Positions 7,090 to 21,670 of a stretch of 64,000 nucleotides of DNA are shown here, piece by piece. Below the pieces are notes generated by a model. That model was not told the origin of the DNA and did not search any database. It was given only the letters and a program-made list of their open reading frames with translations. The position numbers and the translations under genes were made by a program. Position 1 is the stretch's first letter, and each line of letters opens with the position of its first letter. The stretch lies in contig JAKUPN010000004.1 of NCBI GenBank assembly GCA_022449545.1, positions 1 through 64,000 of the forward strand. Direction: 5' to 3'. Source of the DNA: Alphaproteobacteria bacterium (GTDB lineage: Bacteria > Pseudomonadota > Alphaproteobacteria > UBA6615).

Positions 7090-7473
7090 ATGAATAATAA
7101 AAAAGGTGAGCGTCCCCCAATAGCTATTGGCCATGTTAATCTTATTACAAAAGATGTTCCGACAACCAGTTTGTTTATGGAATCTATTGGTCTTAGAAAG
7201 GTTTTTGAAAATAAAACATTTGCTGTTCTTGAACTGCGTGGCGGAACCCATTTAATTTTGGAGACGTCTTCTAAAAGACGAAAAAAGGATACACTGGCTC
7301 CTTTCGATCTTATGGTTGATGACCTAAATGAAACCCGGAATCTTTATAAAGAGATGGGATTAAAACCCTCTAAAATTGGTAAAGGAAAGGTGCATAGCTC
7401 ATTTACAATTTCTGGCCCAGATAATTGGTCTTTTAAAATTACGTCTTCCCACACATCTGGCCGTCGAGTTTAG
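7090..7473 (+). CDS. VOC family protein (glyoxalase/dioxygenase superfamily)
   Basis: A 127-residue single vicinal-oxygen-chelate domain. The N-terminal IGHVNLITKDVPTTSLFMES provides the usual first metal-ligand histidine (His15). LRGGTHLILE and FDLMVDDLNETRNLYKEMG follow the betaalphabetabetabeta pattern. The family includes ring-cleaving dioxygenases, glyoxalase I, epimerases and resistance proteins, and one short domain cannot tell them apart. It opens a plus-strand run with a bicupin, a 2OG oxygenase and a flavin monooxygenase, and is divergent from badH. AGAAG lies a few bases before the ATG. Confidence 0.78.
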   Translation: MNNKKGERPPIAIGHVNLITKDVPTTSLFMESIGLRKVFENKTFAVLELRGGTHLILETSSKRRKKDTLAPFDLMVDDLNETRNLYKEMGLKPSKIGKGKVHSSFTISGPDNWSFKITSSHTSGRRV

Positions 7474-7495
7474 AAATTCGAATAATGGAGAAAAG

Positions 7496-8359
7496 ATGAA
7501 TAAAAATAATAGACATAAAGTTGATAGTTTTTCAGAATCTGACTTGTCTCCCCACCCTATTTACGAAAACAATTCTTCTGGATTGCTCTATTCTCCATTT
7601 ATTAATCGCAAAGCTGGATCAGTTCATACGGGCTTTGGTGTTATGTCATTACTTCCAGGAGGGAGCACGGAAATGATAACCAACGCATTTGAAAAGGGCC
7701 TATTTGTTTTAGGTGGCGATTTGGATCTGATTCGAGGAGAAAAGGTTTACAAATTAACCGAAGGTGATTTTGCACTAATTCCTACAGCGGTTCCTCATGC
7801 CTGGCGAAATAGCTCAAAAAATGATGTACGCTGGGTAGTGGTTGAATCTCCACAACCAAAAGATTTTGGTCAATGGCAGGATACATGGTTTTCTGGGCCA
7901 GTCATTTGGCCAGAACAAATACCGAAACTGAAGTTAGATGATCCCCGATTGAGCGGTCTGGGTAACTATAATGTTAAAAACCAACCTCCTTCTACTACAA
8001 TAAGTCCATATCTTAACGGTTTTTCAATGAAAATGTTGTTAGATAATGAAGCCGGATCAATTCATTTTTACATGTTTATAATTAACTTCCGAGATGGTGG
8101 TATATGTGATCACCACGATCATCCGTTTGAAGAAACCTATTTTATGTTAGAGGGTGAGGTTGAATGCGTATTTGAGGGGCAGGAGTATACTCTTAAAGAA
8201 GGCGATTACGGGTGGACGGGAGTTGGGACACAACACGGTTTCTTTCCAAAAAAGGGTAAACCCGCTAGATGGTTAGAAGTTCAAGTGCCACAGCCGCCAC
8301 GTCAAGGAGGGCAGCGTTGGTACACTGAATGGGATTATATAAATGAGATTTTGAAATAA
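7496..8359 (+). CDS. Bicupin protein
   Basis: A 287-residue protein with two cupin barrels. The C-terminal barrel keeps the metal motif in HHDHPFEETYFMLEGEVE (His, His, Glu) and the closing GVGTQHGFF histidine. The N-terminal barrel (GGDLDLIRGEKVYKL, PTAVPHAWRN) has lost the HxH pair. The layout resembles ureidoglycine aminohydrolase and gentisate/quercetinase-type bicupins, but neither signature is convincing, so I give no reaction. The ATG at 7496 has GGAG eight bases upstream; longer frames would overlap the VOC gene. It is 22 bp after the VOC gene and 18 bp before the 2OG oxygenase, so one operon is likely. Confidence 0.8.
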   Translation: MNKNNRHKVDSFSESDLSPHPIYENNSSGLLYSPFINRKAGSVHTGFGVMSLLPGGSTEMITNAFEKGLFVLGGDLDLIRGEKVYKLTEGDFALIPTAVPHAWRNSSKNDVRWVVVESPQPKDFGQWQDTWFSGPVIWPEQIPKLKLDDPRLSGLGNYNVKNQPPSTTISPYLNGFSMKMLLDNEAGSIHFYMFIINFRDGGICDHHDHPFEETYFMLEGEVECVFEGQEYTLKEGDYGWTGVGTQHGFFPKKGKPARWLEVQVPQPPRQGGQRWYTEWDYINEILK

Positions 8360-8377
8360 AAAAATACGTTGATTTCC

Positions 8378-9394
8378 ATGGTTTACAATCCAAAGCCTAC
8401 CGATTTAATAATCCAAAAGGTTACCAGTGAACAAGTTCCGGTGCTTGATTTGTTCAGTTATATTAATGGTGTAGATGGAGAAGCAGAGCAGTTAGCATCT
8501 GATCTTCGATATATTCAGGAGAACCTTGGGTTTTATTATATTATCAACCATGGCGTTTCTAATAAACTTATAGAAAAGGCCTTTGAACAGGTCAGGCTTT
8601 TTTTTGGTTTACCTGATTCAGAAAAAAATAGAATTATGGTTAATGAAAATCAGGTTGGTTTTGTTCCCTCCAAAGCTAGTATAATGAAAACTGAATTAAC
8701 AAAAGAGAATACCATGCCTGATATAAATGAGGGTTTCTCTTTGATGCGTGAGAGGGAGCCCAATGATCCAAAAGTGCTCGCTGGAGTAAGGTTTTCTGGT
8801 CTTAATCAATGGCCTGAGGGGGTGCCTAAGCTAAAAGAAATATTGTTAAAGTATCATTTAGAAATGGAAAAATTAGGTAAACGTTTATTGCCTTTATATG
8901 CGCTCGCTTTAGAAAAGCCCTTAGAATATTTTAATCCATTTTTTGAAGACGCACACTACTATAATCGTAATTCGATGTATCCCGCTGTTAAAGAACCTGG
9001 AAAACATGAAGCTCTTGGTGCTCATACAGACCATAATTTTCTTGCTCTGTTACCTATGTCGGAAGAGCCGGGTTTGATGTATGCGACGCCCTCTGGGAAT
9101 TGGCTTAAAGCTCCTAAAGTGCCAGGTGCCATAGTGGTCAATACTGGAGAATTTCTTAAAAGATGGACCAATGGAAGATTCTTACCGACACCGCATCGGG
9201 TTACCATTCCAAGGCGTAATAGATATTCTCTTACATTCCATTACAGTCCAAGTGATGAGACAGAGGCTATCCCGTTGGATACCTGTGTGAGTCCTGGGAA
9301 CCCTCCTATCTATGAGCCAAAAACCTTCATACAGCATATGACTGATTATATTGATGCAGTTTATGTGCCACAAAAAGAAATGATGGAATGTTAG
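8378..9394 (+). CDS. Isopenicillin N synthase-like 2-oxoglutarate/Fe(II) oxygenase
   Basis: A 338-residue enzyme with an N-terminal DIOX_N part (GFYYIINHGV, about 51-60) and a C-terminal 2OG-Fe(II) domain. The iron triad is His216 and Asp218 in GAHTDHNFLALL and His273 in TPHRVTIP. Arg282-Tyr-Ser284 is the RxS motif that binds the 2-oxoglutarate carboxylate. Such enzymes hydroxylate, desaturate or open small molecules; the substrate is not evident. I take ATG 8378; an in-frame TTG at 8369 would add three residues. It sits between the bicupin and the flavin monooxygenase, so it probably acts on the same compound class. Confidence 0.88.
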   Translation: MVYNPKPTDLIIQKVTSEQVPVLDLFSYINGVDGEAEQLASDLRYIQENLGFYYIINHGVSNKLIEKAFEQVRLFFGLPDSEKNRIMVNENQVGFVPSKASIMKTELTKENTMPDINEGFSLMREREPNDPKVLAGVRFSGLNQWPEGVPKLKEILLKYHLEMEKLGKRLLPLYALALEKPLEYFNPFFEDAHYYNRNSMYPAVKEPGKHEALGAHTDHNFLALLPMSEEPGLMYATPSGNWLKAPKVPGAIVVNTGEFLKRWTNGRFLPTPHRVTIPRRNRYSLTFHYSPSDETEAIPLDTCVSPGNPPIYEPKTFIQHMTDYIDAVYVPQKEMMEC

Positions 9395-9439
9395 TGCTTA
9401 ATGATTGATTTCTTTTTTTTTAAATAACTATTATTTGAA

Positions 9440-11083
9440 ATGCTAGAAGTAAAAACGAAAGTTTTAATATCGGGTGGTGGTCCAGTGGGATTAACTCTTG
9501 CGCTTGAGTTGTCAAGGCAAGGTGTTGAATGTTTAATCGTTAATGAACAAGAAACAACTTCAACTCATCCTAAAGCAAATGCAATAAATGCCCGCTCCAT
9601 GGAGCATTTTAGGCGGTTGGGAGTTTCCTCAGAAATACGAGAAGCAGGTTTACCAGAGAATTACCCAACTGACGTAACTTATGTTACACGATTGACCGGT
9701 TATGAAATAGCCAGGTTATCTATGCCTTCTCGCGCACGCGCCCTAGAAGAAGCTAAAGCTGGCACAAGTCCATATGATTGCGCCGAACCTCCTCATCGTT
9801 GTAGTCAGATTTATCTAGAGTCAATTTTATACAAATCAGCACTTCAAAATCCGTTAATTAATGTATTATTTGGTTATCGACTTGAATCTTTTATCGAATC
9901 AGAAAGTGAAATAATTGCTAATGTAGAAAATATTTCCAATGGCGAATGTATAATAATTAAGGCTGATTATCTGGTTGGAGCGGATGGCGGTCGGAGCATG
10001 GTGAGGCGAGAACTTGGCATTCGTTATGAGGGTGAGGCGGGTATTGAGAGACGGATGATGGGTGGCTCTATGATGGCAACTTATTTTAGATTGTCGCGTG
10101 ATTTATCTTGGCTAAAAATATCACCTTCTTGGCAATATTGGATTGTTTCTTCTGATTTTCGTGCCCTTCTCATGACCGTTAATGGCAAAGATGAATTTGT
10201 TTTGCTTTCAAGAGTACAGGAAAATACAAATAACGACAGAATCGATGATTTGGAACTTATTTCTCTTGCTGCTGGTTGTTCCGTTGATGCAGAAATAATA
10301 TTAAGTCAGTCATGGACAGCTGGACATGCGTTGATAGCAGAGTCTTATGGAAGGAGACGAGTGTGGCTTGTAGGTGATTCTACTCACCTATTTACTCCAA
10401 CTGGCGGTCTAGGAATGAATACTGGTGTGGATGATGCTATTAATTTAGCGTGGAAATTATCGGCTTTGGTTAATGGTTGGGGAGGGCCTAATTTATTATC
10501 GAGCTATGAAGAAGACAGACGACCAATAGGATTAAGAAACTTAGCTTTTGCAAAATCTTTTGCCGAATCCATTGGGTCATTTGAGGTGTCCTCAAATATT
10601 GAGAGTGAAAAATTTCAAGGACAAGAAGAACGAAGAGTCTTGGGAAGTTTTTTAGCAGATCATGGGAAAAGAGAATTTATAATTCCCGGAATTGTTTTGG
10701 GTGTTAGGTATGAAAACTCTTCGATAATTTGGCCTGATGGAACTCTACCAGTTAGAGATGATCCATATGATTATGTCCCAACATCACGACCAGGTTCTCG
10801 TGCCCCTCACGTTTGGTTGTCTGGTGGTTTGGCACTCTGTGATTTTTTTAGCCCAGGGTTTACCTTGATACGTCAAAATCAAGAGAACGATATAAATGAT
10901 TTGCTATCAGCGGCTAATGATATAGGAGTTCCTATATCTTTACTTGATTTAGAGCACGATGAAATTTGTGAGTTTTATGAGCGTGAGCTTACCCTAGTTG
11001 GCCCTGATGGCCACGTGACATGGCGAGGTGACGCTTTACCCCAAAATACTATAAATTTTCTTGATCGAATTAGAGGAATGTAA
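9440..11083 (+). CDS. FAD-dependent aromatic-type monooxygenase (PheA/TfdB/MhpA group)
   Basis: A 547-residue class A flavoprotein hydroxylase. The FAD dinucleotide motif is SGGGPVGLTLALELSRQG (11-28), the DG motif is GADGGRSMVRRELG (180-193) and the GD motif is VGDSTHLFTPTGGLGMNTG (311-329). A C-terminal thioredoxin-like tail (VSLLDLEHDE..., GPDGHVTWRG) is typical of phenol hydroxylase/TfdB-like members, which hydroxylate phenols or hydroxyphenylpropionates with NAD(P)H and O2. The exact substrate is not readable. It ends the plus-strand oxygenase run and converges on the M24 gene with a 6-bp gap. Confidence 0.88.
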   Translation: MLEVKTKVLISGGGPVGLTLALELSRQGVECLIVNEQETTSTHPKANAINARSMEHFRRLGVSSEIREAGLPENYPTDVTYVTRLTGYEIARLSMPSRARALEEAKAGTSPYDCAEPPHRCSQIYLESILYKSALQNPLINVLFGYRLESFIESESEIIANVENISNGECIIIKADYLVGADGGRSMVRRELGIRYEGEAGIERRMMGGSMMATYFRLSRDLSWLKISPSWQYWIVSSDFRALLMTVNGKDEFVLLSRVQENTNNDRIDDLELISLAAGCSVDAEIILSQSWTAGHALIAESYGRRRVWLVGDSTHLFTPTGGLGMNTGVDDAINLAWKLSALVNGWGGPNLLSSYEEDRRPIGLRNLAFAKSFAESIGSFEVSSNIESEKFQGQEERRVLGSFLADHGKREFIIPGIVLGVRYENSSIIWPDGTLPVRDDPYDYVPTSRPGSRAPHVWLSGGLALCDFFSPGFTLIRQNQENDINDLLSAANDIGVPISLLDLEHDEICEFYERELTLVGPDGHVTWRGDALPQNTINFLDRIRGM

Positions 11084-11089
11084 TTAGGG

Positions 11090-12295
11090 TTAATGTATCC
11101 TGTGTATTCCTCTGGGAATACTATGTAATGATTCTACCCCATTTTGTGTGATTCTCACTGCTTCTCCAGTTTGCACACCAGCCTTTTGGTCTAGGGTGAT
11201 TATATTTGGTTGCACTACCATACACATCCCTGGTTTCAGAATTAAATCTGGTATGGGACCAGCGGGTCGACTCTTACAGCCAAGAATAGGTTGAAGATAA
11301 CCCCCACCATAACCATGAACTAGATCGTCATAAATTGAAAACCCCGCTTCTTCTATCACGCTGGTTGCATTAAAAATATCTTGAGCACTTGTGCCAGGTT
11401 TTAAGATTTTCATAATCTCATCAAAGGTCTTCTCAGCTGTAAAATGTAAATCCCTATAGAGAGGTGTTGGTTCTTCACCAACTGTGAAACTCCTAAGTAT
11501 TTGCCCTGAATAATCCCAAAAATCCGCACTTATTTCCGTGAAGATTATATCTCCTTTAGATATCGATCTATTCAACGGCCATTGGCGAGGAACACAACAA
11601 TCAGGATTTGCCATATTTGTTGCCCCGAAGAAGTGGATTAAATTCGTCGCTCCCCATTTTAAGTATGATCTTTCTACATGGTCACCAAGTAGTCGTTCGT
11701 TATCTCCTATTTGGGTATTTTCCAAGAGTGATTCATAGGATAGATCACTCAAAACAGCTCCTATTTTAAGCCACTCAAATTCTTCTTCAGATTTTATTAA
11801 GCGAGCCATTCCATATTCTTGGTTTAGATCAATAATTTCTGATGTTCTTTCTTCTAATGACCTGAATAATGACATTGTTAGGGGGCCGATTATTCCAATT
11901 CGACTATTTTTCTTACCTCTTTTCTCCATTTCTTTAATAATCATTTTAATCGAAGATTCTTTCCCCGGCCCTACATCAGTTTCATATGCAATTTTTGTCG
12001 CTTGAGGAACGTGATTATAAAACTGAACATACATGATTGGTTTTATGTCATTAGAGAAAAGTACAGCTGCTTCTGCAGTGACGGGCCACCCGGTAAAGTA
12101 AACAACTGAATTACCAGCCCAGTAGGCGCCATATAAAATTATATGATCTAAATCATACTTATTTAACCAATCTTTTATAAGGCGTCGTCTTTGGTCCATT
12201 TCGGAGTTAGAGAAACGGGGAAATTCCTGCTCAATTACTCTCATCTGACTTTCGGTTAGACGCTCTGCAAGCAGTTCTTTGGTTTCTCTAGCCAT
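11090..12295 (-). CDS. M24 (pita-bread) family protein with altered metal site
   Basis: A 401-residue protein with a creatinase N-terminal domain and a C-terminal M24 fold. It would normally be called Xaa-Pro peptidase. The metal-ligand positions are changed: the region aligned to the two Asp ligands reads ISADFWDYSGQILRSF, the glutamate after the histidine block reads MVVQPNII (Gln), and only HGYGGGY and the last TGEAVRIT glutamate look conserved. It does not keep creatinase's catalytic His either. It may be a metal-independent hydrolase of a small amidine or amide, as creatinase and ectoine hydrolase relatives are, or lack peptidase activity. ATG 12295 has AGGA at a suitable distance; an upstream in-frame start at 12337 has none. 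Confidence 0.78.
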   Translation of the reverse strand: MARETKELLAERLTESQMRVIEQEFPRFSNSEMDQRRRLIKDWLNKYDLDHIILYGAYWAGNSVVYFTGWPVTAEAAVLFSNDIKPIMYVQFYNHVPQATKIAYETDVGPGKESSIKMIIKEMEKRGKKNSRIGIIGPLTMSLFRSLEERTSEIIDLNQEYGMARLIKSEEEFEWLKIGAVLSDLSYESLLENTQIGDNERLLGDHVERSYLKWGATNLIHFFGATNMANPDCCVPRQWPLNRSISKGDIIFTEISADFWDYSGQILRSFTVGEEPTPLYRDLHFTAEKTFDEIMKILKPGTSAQDIFNATSVIEEAGFSIYDDLVHGYGGGYLQPILGCKSRPAGPIPDLILKPGMCMVVQPNIITLDQKAGVQTGEAVRITQNGVESLHSIPRGIHRIH

Positions 12296-12424
12296 AATAT
12301 TATTTCCTAGACTTATTTTATATAGGCGAGCCCACATCTTCGGAATCGCTAAAACAGTGCGCCCCGTTACTTATTTAAAGTCTAATATCATCAGGGCTGT
12401 TGAGCCTAAAGGGCCCAAAGCACA

Positions 12425-15175: not shown

Positions 15176-15229
15176 AAAGTTGTTCCATTTTTAAAATTGA
15201 TTATGAAGTAACTAGAAAGAGAGAGATTG

Positions 15230-15652
15230 ATGCGAATTGAACCCATACACCCTGATCCAAGTCAGGCAGATAAATTACCCTATTCCCCTTCTATATATGT
15301 TCAGGGAGCTGGAGACTTACTTTTTATTTCAGGCTGCACAGCTATACCACTTTATCATTCTCACCCTCATGTTCACGAGGAACATGTATTGCCAGATGAT
15401 ATAAAATTACAAACTCGCCTAGCAATGGATGATATAAAGCTCTCATTGGATGCCTGTAATATCGGTTGGGAAAATGTAGTTAAGGTAACAAAATATTTAA
15501 CTGACATGCGTGAAGCAGATGATATGCACGAGGTAATGGCTGAGTATTTTGGTAACTGGAAACCAGCAAGCACGATGGTTTGTATAAATAACTTAAGTTC
15601 TCCTGGCGCAAGGGTAGAGATTGATATCACAGCTGTTTTGCCTCCAAAATAA
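15230..15652 (+). CDS. RidA family protein (YjgF/YER057c/UK114)
   Basis: A 140-residue RidA-fold protein. The core is LLFISGCTAIP, the helix with LDACNIGWENVVKVTKYLTDM, and the C-terminal LSSPGARVEIDITAV, whose arginine is the residue that binds the substrate carboxylate in active RidA enamine/imine deaminases. A histidine-rich insert (YHSHPHVHEEH) near residue 47 is unusual and marks a diverged subfamily often found in catabolic clusters. AAAGAGAG lies before ATG 15230. It opens a same-strand run with a cupin, NmrA-like, 3HIBDH-like and Gfo/Idh genes. Confidence 0.85.
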   Translation: MRIEPIHPDPSQADKLPYSPSIYVQGAGDLLFISGCTAIPLYHSHPHVHEEHVLPDDIKLQTRLAMDDIKLSLDACNIGWENVVKVTKYLTDMREADDMHEVMAEYFGNWKPASTMVCINNLSSPGARVEIDITAVLPPK

Positions 15653-15671
15653 AATTATAAAGGAGAAGTCT

Positions 15672-16511
15672 ATGCCTGTTATTTTTAATGAAGGTGAAAT
15701 CCAGAAAGAATGTATTCGTGAAGGGGTATTTGTACAAAGGCTGATAACTCCAGAAAGGGTAAAATCGGATTACATATCTACCGAAAGGTTGCATTTAGAT
15801 CCCAAAATAGAGATAGACTTTAGTGTGGAGAAAGATAGTTTGGCATGGTTTCACGTTATTTCTGGTTCGGTGCTATTGAATGGGGAATTTGGTGAGAAAG
15901 AGCTAAATAGGGATTATTTTGTACTACTTCCTCCTTCTCTTAAAGCAAGAGTCTCAAGTGATGAGGGAGCTCTTTTGTTTAAGGCCACAGTGCCTAGAGC
16001 GTATAGGTTTGATAAATACTGGGAAACTTCTGAAATGGATATCAGGTTTGTAGATTGGACCAAGGAGCCAGTGTTAAATTCAGAGTTCGATGAGAGGAGA
16101 AGAATTTATATGTTAACGCCTCAGTTGTCGGGTACTAAGGCAGCTAAAGGTGAAATGATTATTTATCCCCCTGGAACAAAGGCTGCTAATCACCATCATG
16201 AAGGTGCTGAACACTTTCAAGTTATTCTCAAAGGCAGTGCCACTTTTTATGTTGATGATATTCCTCATAGCGTTAGAGCCGGTGACACTATCTATATTTA
16301 TGATAATGAGCGGCATTATTTCATAAACGACGGAGAAGAGGAGCTGTCATTTATAGAATACTTTGTTCCTGGAGTATATAAAACCGTTTGGGCTGAAGGA
16401 GCGAACATATGCACCTGGAGCCCTTCAGGGCTTAATATAAAAGGGGGAAAACCATCCAGGGAAGTTAAAGCCCATTCTTCGGCTGAGGCCCATAGCATAA
16501 AAGAACTTTAA
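15672..16511 (+). CDS. Cupin domain protein (double-barrel)
   Basis: A 279-residue protein. The C-terminal barrel has the metal-binding set in ANHHHEGAEHFQVILKGSA (His, His, Glu) and the closing DNERHYF histidine. The N-terminal half (WFHVISGSVLLNGEFG) is a degenerate cupin without the ligands. Such bicupins are dioxygenases, isomerases or hydrolases; the reaction is not evident. AAGGAG lies eight bases before ATG 15672 and the gene follows RidA by 19 bp, so it is very likely in the same transcript. Confidence 0.8.
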   Translation: MPVIFNEGEIQKECIREGVFVQRLITPERVKSDYISTERLHLDPKIEIDFSVEKDSLAWFHVISGSVLLNGEFGEKELNRDYFVLLPPSLKARVSSDEGALLFKATVPRAYRFDKYWETSEMDIRFVDWTKEPVLNSEFDERRRIYMLTPQLSGTKAAKGEMIIYPPGTKAANHHHEGAEHFQVILKGSATFYVDDIPHSVRAGDTIYIYDNERHYFINDGEEELSFIEYFVPGVYKTVWAEGANICTWSPSGLNIKGGKPSREVKAHSSAEAHSIKEL

Positions 16512-16552
16512 TTAAAAATATCAGAATTAATTTAGGATTGGAGAAAACTGAA

Positions 16553-17416
16553 ATGATAGGCGTAATTGGGGGAACTGGAAACACTGGCAGGGCAGTTGTT
16601 AAGGCTCTTAAAGAGAAAGGATCAGAGTTTAGATGTTTGGTAAGAGACCCTGAAGCAGCAAAGAAACTATTTGGAGAAGTAGTTGAGTTAGAATACGGGG
16701 ATGTTTCTGACCATTCTTCAGTAGAAAAGGGACTGGAAGGTTGCGAAAAACTATTTCTTCTGACAGGACATAGCCCCGCATTAGCCGAGCAGGAGATTGG
16801 CACAATTCAGGCTGCAAAGCGTGCGGGGGTGAACTACATTGTAAAGCTTTCGGGCGGAGATGCTGTTGCTACGGAAGACTGCCCTAGTTTGATAGGACGA
16901 TCTCATTGGCAGATTGAGCAAGCTCTAAAAGAAAGTGGTTTGGAGTGGACAATATTGCGCCCTGGTTTCTTTATGCAAAATTTAATTAATACAGCCGGAA
17001 TGGTAAAGGGACAAAGCAAAGTCATGATGCCTATATCATCGACGGTCAAGATAGCGATGATAGATGTGAATGATACAGGGGATGTAGCTGCAGAGGTTCT
17101 AACAAAACCAGGCCATGAAAGTATGACTTATTTTCTTTCTGGGCATGCTTATACATTAGAAGATTTCACATCTATTCTTTCAAACGAACTTGGAAGTGAT
17201 ATTCCTTATTTGGAAATTCCATTAGAAGCTGCAGTAAAGGCTATGAAAGAGAGAGACATGCCAGATTGGTTAATAGATCATCAATCTGCATTGATGGGAA
17301 TCGTAAACTCAGGGATAGCAGGGACAACTAATGATCATATTGCAAATCTGAGTGGTCATGCGCCAAGTACACTTGAGCAATTTGTAAAAAATCATATTGA
17401 TTTGTTTAAAAATTAG
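16553..17416 (+). CDS. NmrA-like NAD(P)-binding protein
   Basis: A 287-residue atypical SDR of the NmrA/QOR2 type. It begins with MIGVIGGTGNTGRAVVKALK, the NAD(P) loop at residue 6 onward, followed by GDVSDHSSVEKGLEGCEKLF and HWQIEQALKESGLEWTILRP, the usual order in this family. Members act as redox sensors or quinone reductases. I take ATG 16553 with GGAG ten bases upstream; an in-frame TTG at 16538 would add five residues. It follows the cupin by 41 bp. Confidence 0.83.
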   Translation: MIGVIGGTGNTGRAVVKALKEKGSEFRCLVRDPEAAKKLFGEVVELEYGDVSDHSSVEKGLEGCEKLFLLTGHSPALAEQEIGTIQAAKRAGVNYIVKLSGGDAVATEDCPSLIGRSHWQIEQALKESGLEWTILRPGFFMQNLINTAGMVKGQSKVMMPISSTVKIAMIDVNDTGDVAAEVLTKPGHESMTYFLSGHAYTLEDFTSILSNELGSDIPYLEIPLEAAVKAMKERDMPDWLIDHQSALMGIVNSGIAGTTNDHIANLSGHAPSTLEQFVKNHIDLFKN

Positions 17417-17466
17417 AGGAGTAATAATTATTTTTTACAATTGATTTCAAATTCCGGAGTAAGGAC

Positions 17467-18348
17467 ATGAAGGTTGGTTTTATAGGCACTGGTATTATGG
17501 GAAGCGGTATGGTTCGTAACCTTCTTTCATCTGGTCACGAAGTTACCGTATTTAATCGCACTCAATCAAAGGCTAAATTACTGGCCAAAGACGGTGCACG
17601 AGTTGCAAACGCAGCATTAGAAACAGTTGATGGTGCTGAAATACTTATTACAGTTCTAGGGGGAGATGACTCAGTTTCCGAGGTCTTGTTTGGTGAACAA
17701 GATCTAATTACTTCCTTACCCAAAGGAGCCGTCCATATCTCAATGGAGACAATAAGCGTCAGTTATAGTCGGGTATTAACTGACACTCATAGGTCCAGAG
17801 GTAAAGGTTTTGTTTCTGCGCCGATTATAGGTAGAGGTGACGCAGCTGAATCGGGAGAGCTTACTTTAATAGTGGGAGGAGCCAATGAGGATATTAATTA
17901 CTGTTTACCGGCTTTTGAAGCTATGAGTAAAAATATTGTTCATGTTGGTCAGAACCCAGAGTCTGCAGCTTTTGTGAAATTGTCAAATAATTATTTAATA
18001 GCTGGAGCTCTTGCTGCGATGGGAGAAGCCTTTGCAGTTGTTAGGAAAGCGGGTGTTGATCCTAATGTTTTTTATGAACTTATAACGACTACTATGTTTT
18101 CTGCTCCTATCTACTCTTATTACGGCAAAAATATAGCCACTGATATACATACGCCTCCAAATTTTCGTTCGTCTTTAGGGTTGAAGGACATTAGTCAGAC
18201 CATCGAAAGCGCTCACGGAATTGGGGTTCCTATGCCTCTGGCTGAATTAGTAAAAAGTCAAATTCAACAAACCATCGAAAATGGGGATCAAGACCTTGAT
18301 TGGTCCTGTGTTGCTAGAGTGGCTGCGAAGGCAGCTGGATTAAAATAA
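17467..18348 (+). CDS. 3-hydroxyisobutyrate dehydrogenase-like beta-hydroxyacid dehydrogenase
   Basis: A 293-residue enzyme of the HIBADH/tartronate semialdehyde reductase family. It has the Rossmann GTGIMGSGM (7-15), the substrate-binding APIIGRGDAAESGELTLIVG block (119-138; most members read APVSGG) and the catalytic lysine Lys171 in KLSNNYLIAG. The altered substrate block argues for a substrate other than 3-hydroxyisobutyrate, although the window also carries mmsA at its start. GGAGTAAGGAC lies before the ATG. It is co-directional with its neighbours. Confidence 0.87.
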   Translation: MKVGFIGTGIMGSGMVRNLLSSGHEVTVFNRTQSKAKLLAKDGARVANAALETVDGAEILITVLGGDDSVSEVLFGEQDLITSLPKGAVHISMETISVSYSRVLTDTHRSRGKGFVSAPIIGRGDAAESGELTLIVGGANEDINYCLPAFEAMSKNIVHVGQNPESAAFVKLSNNYLIAGALAAMGEAFAVVRKAGVDPNVFYELITTTMFSAPIYSYYGKNIATDIHTPPNFRSSLGLKDISQTIESAHGIGVPMPLAELVKSQIQQTIENGDQDLDWSCVARVAAKAAGLK

Positions 18349-18408
18349 AATAATATTTTCAGTAGTTACCTTTTCTAGATTATATTTAAAAAGATTAGTG
18401 GGGAGAAT

Positions 18409-19410
18409 ATGTTGAATGCAGCAGTTGTTGGTCTTGGTTGGTGGGGCAAACAAATTGTATCAAGTCTAAAAGATAGCAAAAAAATTAATGTCAGTAGAGG
18501 TGTCGATATAAATGTAGATTCTGTTCAGGAGTTTGCTGACGTTCACGGATTGAAAATAGATAATTCCTATGATCAGGTCCTGATAGACCCAAATATAGAT
18601 GCAGTGATCCTTGTAACGCCACACCTTCTTCACGAAGAACAGGTTTTAGCTGCTGCAGCAGCAAATAAACATATCTTTTGTGAAAAACCATTTGCTCTAA
18701 ATTCGAACTCTGCAAGGGCTATGATAAAGACTTGCGAAGAAAATGGCATATGTTTGGGAATAGGACATGAACGACGATTTGAACCAGCATTAGAGGCAGT
18801 AAAGACTAATCTTGACTCTGGTAATCTAGGTACACTTATTCATATAGAATGCAATTGGTCTCATAACAATTTCACAAAAAATATTGCTTCTGGTTGGCGA
18901 AAAGATCCCAAGCAGGCTCCGGCAGGAACACTAACTGCTTTGGGCGTGCATATTACTGACTACTTTCAATCTATAGCTGGCCCGGTTCAAAAGTTACGGG
19001 CCTTGACAACTCACCGATCGGACTTGTTTCCAGCAGATGATGTTGTTGCAGTTCAATTTGTTTTTGAGAGTGGGGCATCGGGACTGATGTGTAACATCGC
19101 CACAACCCCATTTTATAGCCGAATTAGTGTTTTTGGCGACAAAGGCTGGGCTGAGGCTAGGGAAAACTCAAATGTAGATATTCCGGAACCTGCATCATTA
19201 ACAACACGCTGGCTAGATGAAGAATTAACTACACAGACTTACGCATCCACGAATGTAGTAAAATTAAATCTGGAGCAATGGGCAGATGCAGTTGAAGGCA
19301 AGGCTGTTTATAGATTCACTAATGAACAAATATTACATAATGTTGAAATACTTGAAGCAATAGTAAATTCTGCAACTAGTGGCGAAGAGGTTCTCTTGCG
19401 TAATCAATAA
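18409..19410 (+). CDS. Gfo/Idh/MocA family oxidoreductase
   Basis: A 333-residue two-domain NAD(P)-dependent dehydrogenase. The Rossmann start is AAVVGLGWWGKQIVSSL and the family signature CEKPFALNS (lysine in the nicotinamide site) is near residue 88. ALGVHITDYF is the C-terminal substrate motif with the conserved His. Members oxidise inositols, sugars or amino-sugar alcohols. GGGGAG precedes the ATG. It ends the plus-strand run and converges with the SMP-30-like gene. Confidence 0.87.
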   Translation: MLNAAVVGLGWWGKQIVSSLKDSKKINVSRGVDINVDSVQEFADVHGLKIDNSYDQVLIDPNIDAVILVTPHLLHEEQVLAAAAANKHIFCEKPFALNSNSARAMIKTCEENGICLGIGHERRFEPALEAVKTNLDSGNLGTLIHIECNWSHNNFTKNIASGWRKDPKQAPAGTLTALGVHITDYFQSIAGPVQKLRALTTHRSDLFPADDVVAVQFVFESGASGLMCNIATTPFYSRISVFGDKGWAEARENSNVDIPEPASLTTRWLDEELTTQTYASTNVVKLNLEQWADAVEGKAVYRFTNEQILHNVEILEAIVNSATSGEEVLLRNQ

Positions 19411-19440: not shown

Positions 19441-20469
19441 TTAGTGGCTTTCATTCCAGTGGACCATAGGTAGGCCCGCTACTGGAGCGGTAAAATATGG
19501 TAAGTTCGTGGAACGCAGGCTTCCGACATAAACTGTTTTTAAATCTGGTCCCCCAAAAGTCACTGAAGCACACCAAGTAGCGATTTCACCTCCACAAGTA
19601 AGTATAAGGTCAGCATTTACAGTTCCACTTTGAAATGCGTCATCTAATTTTTTAACTTCTTCAGGACTAGAATCATCAAAGATAACTCTCAAGTCACCTT
19701 CTGGTGTGATTGCAAATAAACCATCATTCATGACGTGGGTGCCCCACAAATTTCCATACGAATCAAAGGCACACCCATCTATAAATCTTCCATGATCACT
19801 TGGTCCGAAAATTTCTTTGGAGCCCAAGCTACCATCACTACCAATTTTATATCGGGCAATGTTACGTCCACATGTTTGAACCACATACAGATATTCTTCA
19901 TTTGCATCTAATTTACATTCATTTGAGAAATGCACGTCATCAGCAACTATTCTTACGCCTTTTCCTTCTTCGTAAAGTAGAATTCTGCCATCTATTAGGT
20001 CTTTTCTTATTGCGGATGGCCAATCATGTACCATGGTAGAAATAGTTATCCATATTCGATTTTTACTGTCCCTACAAACGAAATTTACCTTACCAATTGG
20101 ATCACCGTCGACACTATCGAACATAACTTTTGTCTCGCCACTTCTTGTCATTCTTTCCAGGCAATCAGTACCGAAGTTTGATATTAAAATGTCTCCATTA
20201 TCAGCAAAGGCTAGGCCGTTTGGAAGAGTGCCTTCAACAAATTTATTTGCATCATTATCGGAAGAACCAAATGCTTCTGAATCATGAGATTGCGTAATTA
20301 TTTCTTGAGATCCATCTGGACTAATTTTTACCACGCCTCCACGGGCGTCAGCGGACCACAAGGTTCCATCTTTCTCTGCTAAAATACATTCAGGTCTTTG
20401 AAGGTCTGTGCCTATGAATTTAAAGTCTTCCTTTTGAAGGGTAAAACCATCTATAGGGTTGGACATCAT
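19441..20469 (-). CDS. SMP-30/gluconolactonase-like beta-propeller protein
   Basis: A 342-residue six-bladed propeller of the SMP-30/gluconolaconase/LRE type. Repeated blades include GTLPNGLAFADNGDILISNFG, FSNECKLDANEEYLYVV and RFIDGCAFDSYGNLWGT, with acidic residues typical of the calcium site. It would open a lactone, probably the product of a sugar- or cyclitol-type dehydrogenase such as the Gfo/Idh gene next to it; that link is inference. It is upstream of no same-strand partner within 300 bp other than the thiolase (16 bp upstream), so thiolase and SMP-30 are probably co-transcribed. Confidence 0.8.
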   Translation of the reverse strand: MMSNPIDGFTLQKEDFKFIGTDLQRPECILAEKDGTLWSADARGGVVKISPDGSQEIITQSHDSEAFGSSDNDANKFVEGTLPNGLAFADNGDILISNFGTDCLERMTRSGETKVMFDSVDGDPIGKVNFVCRDSKNRIWITISTMVHDWPSAIRKDLIDGRILLYEEGKGVRIVADDVHFSNECKLDANEEYLYVVQTCGRNIARYKIGSDGSLGSKEIFGPSDHGRFIDGCAFDSYGNLWGTHVMNDGLFAITPEGDLRVIFDDSSPEEVKKLDDAFQSGTVNADLILTCGGEIATWCASVTFGGPDLKTVYVGSLRSTNLPYFTAPVAGLPMVHWNESH

Positions 20470-20485: not shown

Positions 20486-21670
20486 TTATTTATTAATTTC
20501 AAATAAGCCAGCGGCCCCCATGCCGCCCCCAACGCACATAGTCACAACACCATATTTTGCTCCGCGTCTTTTACCTTCTATCAAAAGATGAGCTGTTAAC
20601 CTTGATCCACTCATTCCGTATGGATGACCGACTGATATAGCGCCGCCGTTAACGTTAAATTTATCGGGATCTATTTTTAAAGTGTCTCTACAATAGACAG
20701 TCTGGGCAGCAAAGGCTTCGTTTAGTTCCCAAATATCTATGTCATCAATTGCAAGGTTCGCTTTGCTAAGTAGCTTAGGAACTGCAAGAACTGGACCTAT
20801 GCCCATTTCGTCAGGTTCACAACCAGCTATAGCAAATCCACGAAAGAATCCAAGCGGTTCTATACCCTTTTGTTCTGCAACCTTTGAACTCATAATTACG
20901 CAGGCTGAAGCCCCATCAGATAATTGGCTAGCGTTTCCAGGAGTAATACAACCCCCTTCTAAAACAGGATTCAAATTTGCTAAGTCAGCTTCATTTGTTT
21001 CTGGTCGATTTCCTTCGTCTTTTTCTAAATTTACTTTCTTTTCTTTTATCTCGCCCGTTTCTCGATTTTTAATAAGCATGACAGATTCTAATGGAACTAT
21101 CTCATCATCAAACTTTCCTGACTGTTGGGCAGCTGCTGTCCTCATTTGACTTGATAATGCATATTCATCCTGGGATTCACGACTAACTTTGTAGCGACTT
21201 GCCACAGTTTCTGCTGTGTCCAGCATGTTCATATATATATCAGGGCGATTTTCTTTTAGCCACGATGCTTCGTTATCAGGCTCAACTTGATGTTCAGGCG
21301 GCAGCTGACTTATTACTTCAACTCCGCCTGCAACACCACAGTCAATTTCTCCTACCATGACTCTTTGGGACATCATAGCGATTGTCTGAAGGCCCGATGA
21401 ACAAAATCGATTAATAGTTGCTGCGCTGGCACTTACTGGCAGACCGGCGCGCATAGCACTTATCCTTGCAACGTTCATGCCAGTTTGGCCTTGTGGAAAA
21501 CCACACCCAACAAGTACATCTTCGATTTCACTTGGGTCAGCACCAGAACGCTTAATAGAGTGTTCTATTGCATGCCCCATTAGGTCTGCTCCGTGAGTAT
21601 TATTATACGACCCACGGTATGCTTTACCTATAGGAGTTCGAGCAGTGGAGACTATTGCGGCTTCAGACAT
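20486..21670 (-). CDS. Acetyl-CoA acyltransferase / thiolase
   Basis: A 394-residue thiolase II-fold enzyme. The nucleophile is Cys90 in [11 protein letters not shown], the general base is His349 in [11 protein letters not shown] and the second cysteine is Cys379 in TMCVGGGMG. It cleaves 3-ketoacyl-CoA to acetyl-CoA and a shorter acyl-CoA, or runs in reverse. It lies 39 bp after the BKACE gene on the same strand, and the acyl-CoA genes at 24-27 kb could feed it. Confidence 0.92.

Follow-up and report, generated by a model that had tools for sequence, protein, structure and literature searches.

A His-Loop Rid Protein Lacking the Catalytic Arginine, Its Bicupin Partner and an Adjoining Dehydrogenase Block in an Alphaproteobacterial Genome

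The Five-Gene Run

The window considered here is a stretch of 64,000 nucleotides (positions 1 to 64,000 of contig JAKUPN010000004.1) from the 2.25-Mb draft genome of an Alphaproteobacteria bacterium. The subject is a run of five same-strand open reading frames (ORFs) at 15230–19410, which begins with a gene for a Rid-fold protein bearing a His-rich loop, directly followed by a bicupin gene. The five genes, their positions and their families had been named in a preliminary description made from the nucleotide letters, and this part is borne out, with a Pfam match for each protein. The features of the run are as follows.

15230–15652, plus strand: Rid-fold protein of 140 amino acids, His-loop clade, Ser114 at the catalytic-arginine position (PF01042, 3e-21)
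15353–15385, plus strand: His-rich loop YHSHPHVHEEH, Rid codons 42–52, read from the sequence (Y42, H43, H45, P46, H47 and E51 invariant)
15672–16511, plus strand: bicupin of 279 amino acids (PF07883, 1e-17)
16550–17416, plus strand: NmrA-like/atypical short-chain dehydrogenase/reductase (SDR), QOR2- and triphenylmethane-reductase-like (PF05368, 4.7e-30)
17467–18348, plus strand: beta-hydroxyacid dehydrogenase resembling 3-hydroxyisobutyrate dehydrogenase (HIBADH), with the variant motif API[IL]GR.D (PF03446/PF14833, 3.2e-39/4.1e-21)
18409–19410, plus strand: Gfo/Idh/MocA oxidoreductase (PF01408, 2.7e-21)

The Rid gene starts with ATG at 15230, the ORF listing having given TTG at 15227. The NmrA-like ORF has its ATG at 16553; the stretch analysed was 16550–17413 and the gene ends at 17416. 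Between the genes are gaps of 19 to about 60 bases, all free of terminator-like sites; the region has only one such site, inside the bicupin gene (4.1 expected), and a promoter scan stayed at the shuffle level (13 found, 13.6 expected). The five genes may be co-transcribed. In the NCBIfam comparison none of the five proteins reached an equivalog cut-off.

Conservation and Break-Up of the Run

Relatives were sought in a class sample of 385 genomes and a phylum sample of 398 genomes, with at most the best 10 candidates per genome scored in part of the searches. The order of all five genes is kept in 3/3 genomes of the genus, namely the window genome, G016 (locus L027, a close relative, the alphaproteobacterial bin MarineAlpha12_Bin1) and G015 (locus L028), and the full order is confined to this one genus among the genomes examined. 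The background of the genus is itself collinear: of the 20 queried window genes, L027 (18 kb) has 18 in order and L028 has 14, and therefore gene order within the genus carries little functional information.

Outside the genus the first two genes stay together. A Rid protein at least 74% identical was found in five more genomes, four of the same family (G001, G002, G007 and G017) and one of another family (G052); in all five the bicupin gene comes directly after Rid, and the NmrA, HIBADH and Gfo/Idh genes are not there. The Rid–bicupin pair is adjacent in 8/8 genomes with a close Rid, while the run of five is present in 3/8. This adjacency holds amid unlike flanks, those of the other family included. 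The Rid gene of G007 (L046, 9788–10202) is read in two frames, by frameshift or assembly error, so that in one of the eight pairs Rid is either broken or wrongly assembled. The bicupin is rare, with a match at E 1e-30 in 5/385 class genomes, four of them of the same family. No relative was found in the viral contigs searched, and the bicupin had no match among the plasmids and phages searched.

The other three genes keep different company. HIBADH orthologs (at least 69% identity) occur in 4/24 genomes of the order, and G002 is the only one outside the genus. Its contig C363 (L088, 8.5 kb) carries HIBADH, Gfo/Idh, SMP-30, thiolase and BKACE genes together with an FAH gene, with an amidohydrolase gene in between. 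The counterparts of the last four in the window are the next genes to the right of the run, past the border at 19410:

19441–20469, minus strand: SMP-30/gluconolactonase-like protein; beside HIBADH–Gfo/Idh in L088, another genus
20486–21670, minus strand: thiolase; in the same block of L088
21710–22645, minus strand: BKACE (beta-keto acid cleavage enzyme, PF05853); in the same block of L088
23041–24009, plus strand: FAH-family hydrolase; in the same block of L088, there cut by the contig end

The Rid–bicupin pair of G002 sits on a different contig (L030), devoid of genes of the HIBADH–Gfo/Idh block. Orthologs of the Gfo/Idh gene, about 72% identical, occur commonly across the family, and six genomes from other genera (G004, G005, G007, G008, G011 and G019) have an NmrA ortholog at most 5 kb from a Gfo/Idh ortholog, in loci with no match to Rid, bicupin or HIBADH; the genes beside them we take to be gatA and gatB. 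Since HIBADH, Gfo/Idh and NmrA keep other company outside the genus, the run of five is, judged by gene order, a local joining of pieces, with at least two gene sets side by side, and not a widely conserved cassette. The preliminary description had presented a single run, proposed conserved synteny as its check and held that its absence elsewhere would speak against it. In the genomes examined, such synteny is absent beyond the genus for the run of five and deep for the Rid–bicupin pair.

The Rid Protein: His-Rich Loop and the Arginine Site

The Rid protein exceeds the gathering score of PF01042 (76.1 bits vs 27.3), and its predicted monomer has the normal Rid fold with a predicted local distance difference test score (pLDDT) of 89.6, in agreement with Foldseek (1x25, E 1.7e-10; RutC 3v4d, TM-score 0.77/0.86). 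It stays under the cut-off of the Rid family detoxifying hydrolases, TIGR00004 (58.5 bits vs 106.25), and under that of RutC, TIGR03610 (33.5 bits vs 169.1), and a RutC-type Rid is thereby ruled out.

The segment YHSHPHVHEEH is a true insertion with respect to solved Rid proteins, seven residues longer than 2dyy between the flanking blocks. The preliminary description had pointed it out; the insert is genuine, but a reading of it as peculiar to this copy is rejected, as the orthologs and another Rid encoded in the genome have it too. An alignment of 18 proteins (10 from the group of the window Rid, and 8 from a further group, about 40% identical, to which this other Rid belongs) gave G35, P40, Y42, H43, H45, P46, H47 and E51 as invariant in 18/18, that is, the signature Y-H-x-H-P-H-x3-E. 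The second Rid (G000:C1, L048, 5581–7190) likewise has the HxHPH loop, with Thr in place of the arginine, and its gene adjoins that of a pyridoxal phosphate (PLP) enzyme of Cys/Met metabolism. In the model of the window Rid the loop comes after strand 30–36, which in this fold borders the cleft, and residues 41–50 are its least confident part (pLDDT 73). The PDB profile matches included no solved member of the loop clade; the best of them reached 82.5 bits vs 212 to 236 for four loop members (103 for the outlying member L103).

The position of Arg105 of E. coli TdcF, which binds the substrate carboxylate there, is arginine in the aligned solved Rid proteins. In the 18 aligned clade members it is Ser in 9, Thr in 8, Gly in 1 and Arg in none, and the window protein has Ser114. 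Two other landmarks of the Rid imine deaminases (TdcF, YabJ, PH0854) are retained: the Glu at the Glu120 position (E130) is invariant and Y18 nearly so. The 2-aminomuconate deaminase of AmnE/AmnD type (6izh) shares the Rid fold, a similar length and, following the same strand, a long loop; nevertheless, it keeps the arginine (PAR) and its loop has no HxHPH, and an AmnD-type Rid is ruled out by the kept arginine.

The profile search of the 398 sampled genomes, under the same limit on scored candidates, returned 29 places in 27 genomes, all of which were aligned. Five have the His loop, two of them from the window genome. Four of the five have no arginine, and one, L103 (G065:C15:107437-107847), an outlying His-loop Rid, apparently has it, reading PPRT with a one-residue ambiguity in the alignment. 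The arginine is present in 14 of the 24 loop-less Rid proteins and missing from the other 10. Loop and arginine loss are thus not strictly coupled, strict coupling being excluded both by L103, which possibly represents the ancestral state, and by the ten arginine-less, loop-free proteins. Taken together, these alignments indicate that the His-rich loop is a clade signature and that arginine loss extends beyond the clade.

The bearing of this site on chemistry is described in the 2015 family survey of Niehaus et al. (PMC4433059): imine hydrolysis by Rid needs the arginine, its change to alanine almost abolished the activity of plant and Salmonella RidA, and about 10% of RidA-subfamily members carry Ser instead, which is taken there as a sign of functional diversity, while subfamilies Rid4 to Rid7 are called mysterious. 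Because the essential arginine is missing from all 18 aligned loop-clade Rid proteins, the imine-deaminase reading is weakened, and with it the earlier suggestion of enamine or imine intermediates.

The Bicupin

The bicupin exceeds the gathering score of PF07883 (64.1 bits vs 27.2). In its C-terminal cupin the customary metal ligands H174, H176, E180 and H215 are present and invariant in 9/9 sequences, and the N-terminal cupin is devoid of this set. The model has a pLDDT of 79, with the last 33 residues below 50. By whole-chain shape the closest Foldseek matches are ureidoglycine aminohydrolase types (4e2q, TM-score 0.70/0.75, root-mean-square deviation 2.8). The likeness to (S)-ureidoglycine aminohydrolase AllE/UGlyAH (4e2q, 1rc6) lies in the compact bicupin architecture and a single predicted metal domain in the C-terminal half; the differences are the usual His-His-Glu-His ligand set and a score far under the family cut-off TIGR03214 (20.4 bits vs 200).

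A second bicupin of the genome, 42% identical (G000:C5, L049, 7789–13041), adjoins genes for a 774-amino-acid amidase and a luciferase-like monooxygenase. This locus resembles a Rut-like oxygenase/amidase set, and we take an ORF nearby to be flavin-reductase-like.

The Three Oxidoreductases

The NmrA-like atypical SDR exceeds the gathering score of PF05368 (105.7 bits vs 27), and its closest relatives are YtfG/QOR2 and triphenylmethane reductase. The Gfo/Idh/MocA protein has the domains PF01408 and PF22725/PF02894 and is closest, with modest scores, to several sugar-type oxidoreductases. The HIBADH-like protein has the NAD_binding_2 and NAD_binding_11 domains and the lysine region of the beta-hydroxyacid dehydrogenase superfamily. 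It had been remarked that APIIGRGD stands in it in place of APVSGG, and indeed the motif aligns with APVSGG of tartronate semialdehyde reductase 1vpd. It is no oddity of this copy, being identical in 4/4 orthologs found, with APVLGRPD in more distant relatives and APIFARPE in the closest solved protein, 4gbj (E 7.8e-57; APIFARPEA). As the lysine region AAxVKLSNNY is also kept, APIIGRGD is, on these alignments, a known conserved variant motif and no broken site. The protein stays under every NCBIfam equivalog cut-off of the HIBADH/tartronate semialdehyde reductase superfamily, TIGR01692 (152.5 vs 291.6) and PRK11559 (180.4 vs 397) among them.

Neighbours of the Relatives as Hints to the Substrate

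In three of the eight pair genomes (L030, L031 and L032) a PF04199 cyclase gene ends about 30–45 bases ahead of Rid. The assignment was confirmed in L031, and the cyclases of G001 and G002 are 85% identical. No match to this cyclase at E 1e-20 exists in the three genomes of the window genus, which rules it out as a missing member of the window run. Another PF04199 gene lies upstream in L029, along with genes that are presumably of the TRAP type, and we take one gene in L046 to be a putative cyclase. On plasmid pSR7 of Aminobacter sp. SR38 (L043, 13899–19924) a Rid gene whose product is 61% identical has an FAH gene immediately ahead of it, and a sugar-type ATP-binding cassette transporter and a cupin gene come next. 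Distant Rid relatives also have intradiol dioxygenase and BKACE genes nearby, at most 3 kb away in L044 and within about 10 kb in L045, where the BKACE label is our assumption.

A nitrogen-containing substrate had been suggested for the run, with a cyclic amine as example. The PF04199 cyclase and amidase genes that adjoin relatives of Rid and bicupin make a nitrogen-containing or enol substrate of the pair plausible; support for the cyclic amine is circumstantial. The three oxidoreductases are linked to this substrate by nothing beyond their position in one genus. In a paracetamol study, deamination of 4-aminophenol or aminomuconate by uncharacterised RidA proteins is proposed, unproven (PMC9420511).

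Interpretation and Alternatives

We consider the locus a catabolic neighbourhood of separable pieces, with a probability of roughly one half. Piece A would be the Rid–bicupin pair, or cyclase–Rid–bicupin in some relatives, most likely catalysing consecutive hydrolytic steps on a small compound bearing an enol/enamine or amide group. In it, we infer, the bicupin would be a single-metal enzyme of ureidoglycine-aminohydrolase-like fold, and Rid a lyase, hydrolase or tautomerase without the carboxylate-clamping arginine, to which the conserved His/Glu loop may supply polar or proton-transfer groups. Piece B would comprise Gfo/Idh, the HIBADH-like dehydrogenase, the lactonase-like SMP-30 protein, BKACE, thiolase and FAH, a set that would suit the oxidation of a polyhydroxy or keto acid and its cleavage at a C–C bond. 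In the window genus piece A, the NmrA-like gene and piece B stand head to tail, and A and B may be metabolically linked.

Several observations weigh against this assignment. Three distant Rid relatives (L043, L044 and L045; 51–61% identity) lie in loci where no bicupin homologue appears at E 1e-5, which rules out Rid and bicupin as obligate partners. By Foldseek E-value, oxalate decarboxylases are the best bicupin matches (root-mean-square deviation about 8), and they and quercetin dioxygenases outrank ureidoglycine aminohydrolase. The G002 data are short contigs, so longer-range links are possible there, and the full run is intact in all three genus genomes, where a joint function is possible. 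L103 keeps both loop and, apparently, arginine. Cys/Met-type PLP enzymes are a classic enamine source, and the second Rid beside such an enzyme fits an enamine role despite its missing arginine, which speaks in part against a non-imine function.

The last point would also suit a single five-gene operon degrading a nitrogen-containing substrate such as a cyclic amine, in which Rid hydrolyses the imine or enamine that the dehydrogenases produce. The common strand, the short gaps free of terminator-like sites, the order kept throughout the genus and the cyclase and amidase neighbours in relatives agree with it. We nevertheless regard such an operon as unlikely, as the five genes come apart outside the genus, the genus background is collinear and the catalytic arginine, whose change to alanine nearly ended imine hydrolysis according to the survey cited above (PMC4433059), is Ser. 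If adopted, the five-gene pathway would mislead, because the run is a patchwork. Conversely, the adjacency could be mostly chance, kept by recent common descent among genes with unrelated routine redox and clean-up tasks. The collinearity of L027 and L028 and the NmrA and Gfo/Idh orthologs found elsewhere without the other three genes point this way, yet it leaves unexplained why Rid and bicupin adjoin in 8/8 genomes with unlike flanks, and we hold it to be decidedly improbable.

The loop itself admits a further alternative, in which Y-H-x-H-P-H-x3-E binds a metal at the cleft and metal-assisted hydrolysis replaces the arginine chemistry. It draws on the three His and one Glu of the loop, invariant in 18/18 proteins of which none has the arginine, and on the place of the loop after strand 30–36. 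The loop is, however, the least confident part of the model, L103 has loop and apparently arginine as well, and arginine loss in 10/24 loop-less Rid proteins means that such loss needs no metal loop; a metal site is accordingly quite doubtful. We would be similarly hesitant to propose that the His-loop clade gave up arginine-based imine hydrolysis in favour of another reaction, possibly a metal-assisted one, and forms an undescribed catabolic unit with the metal bicupin and, in some genomes, with the PF04199 hydrolase.

The protein families concerned are known. No description of a Rid–bicupin or Rid–cupin–cyclase cluster, or of the His-loop Rid clade, was found in the open-licence literature, where the clade and its pairing with the bicupin are apparently undescribed. 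A His-loop clade with a constant gene partner offers a concrete, testable entry to the role of arginine-less Rid proteins, and it is this clade that is most worth testing.

Genes Upstream of the Run

At 11090–12337, on the minus strand, lies a gene of the M24 (creatinase/prolidase-type) peptidase family with a weak likeness to ectoine hydrolase, far under the cut-offs. At 7376–11083, just upstream of the run, an oxygenase cluster is present, with genes for a Cupin_2 bicupin, a 2-oxoglutarate-Fe(II) oxygenase and a flavin adenine dinucleotide monooxygenase in a row.

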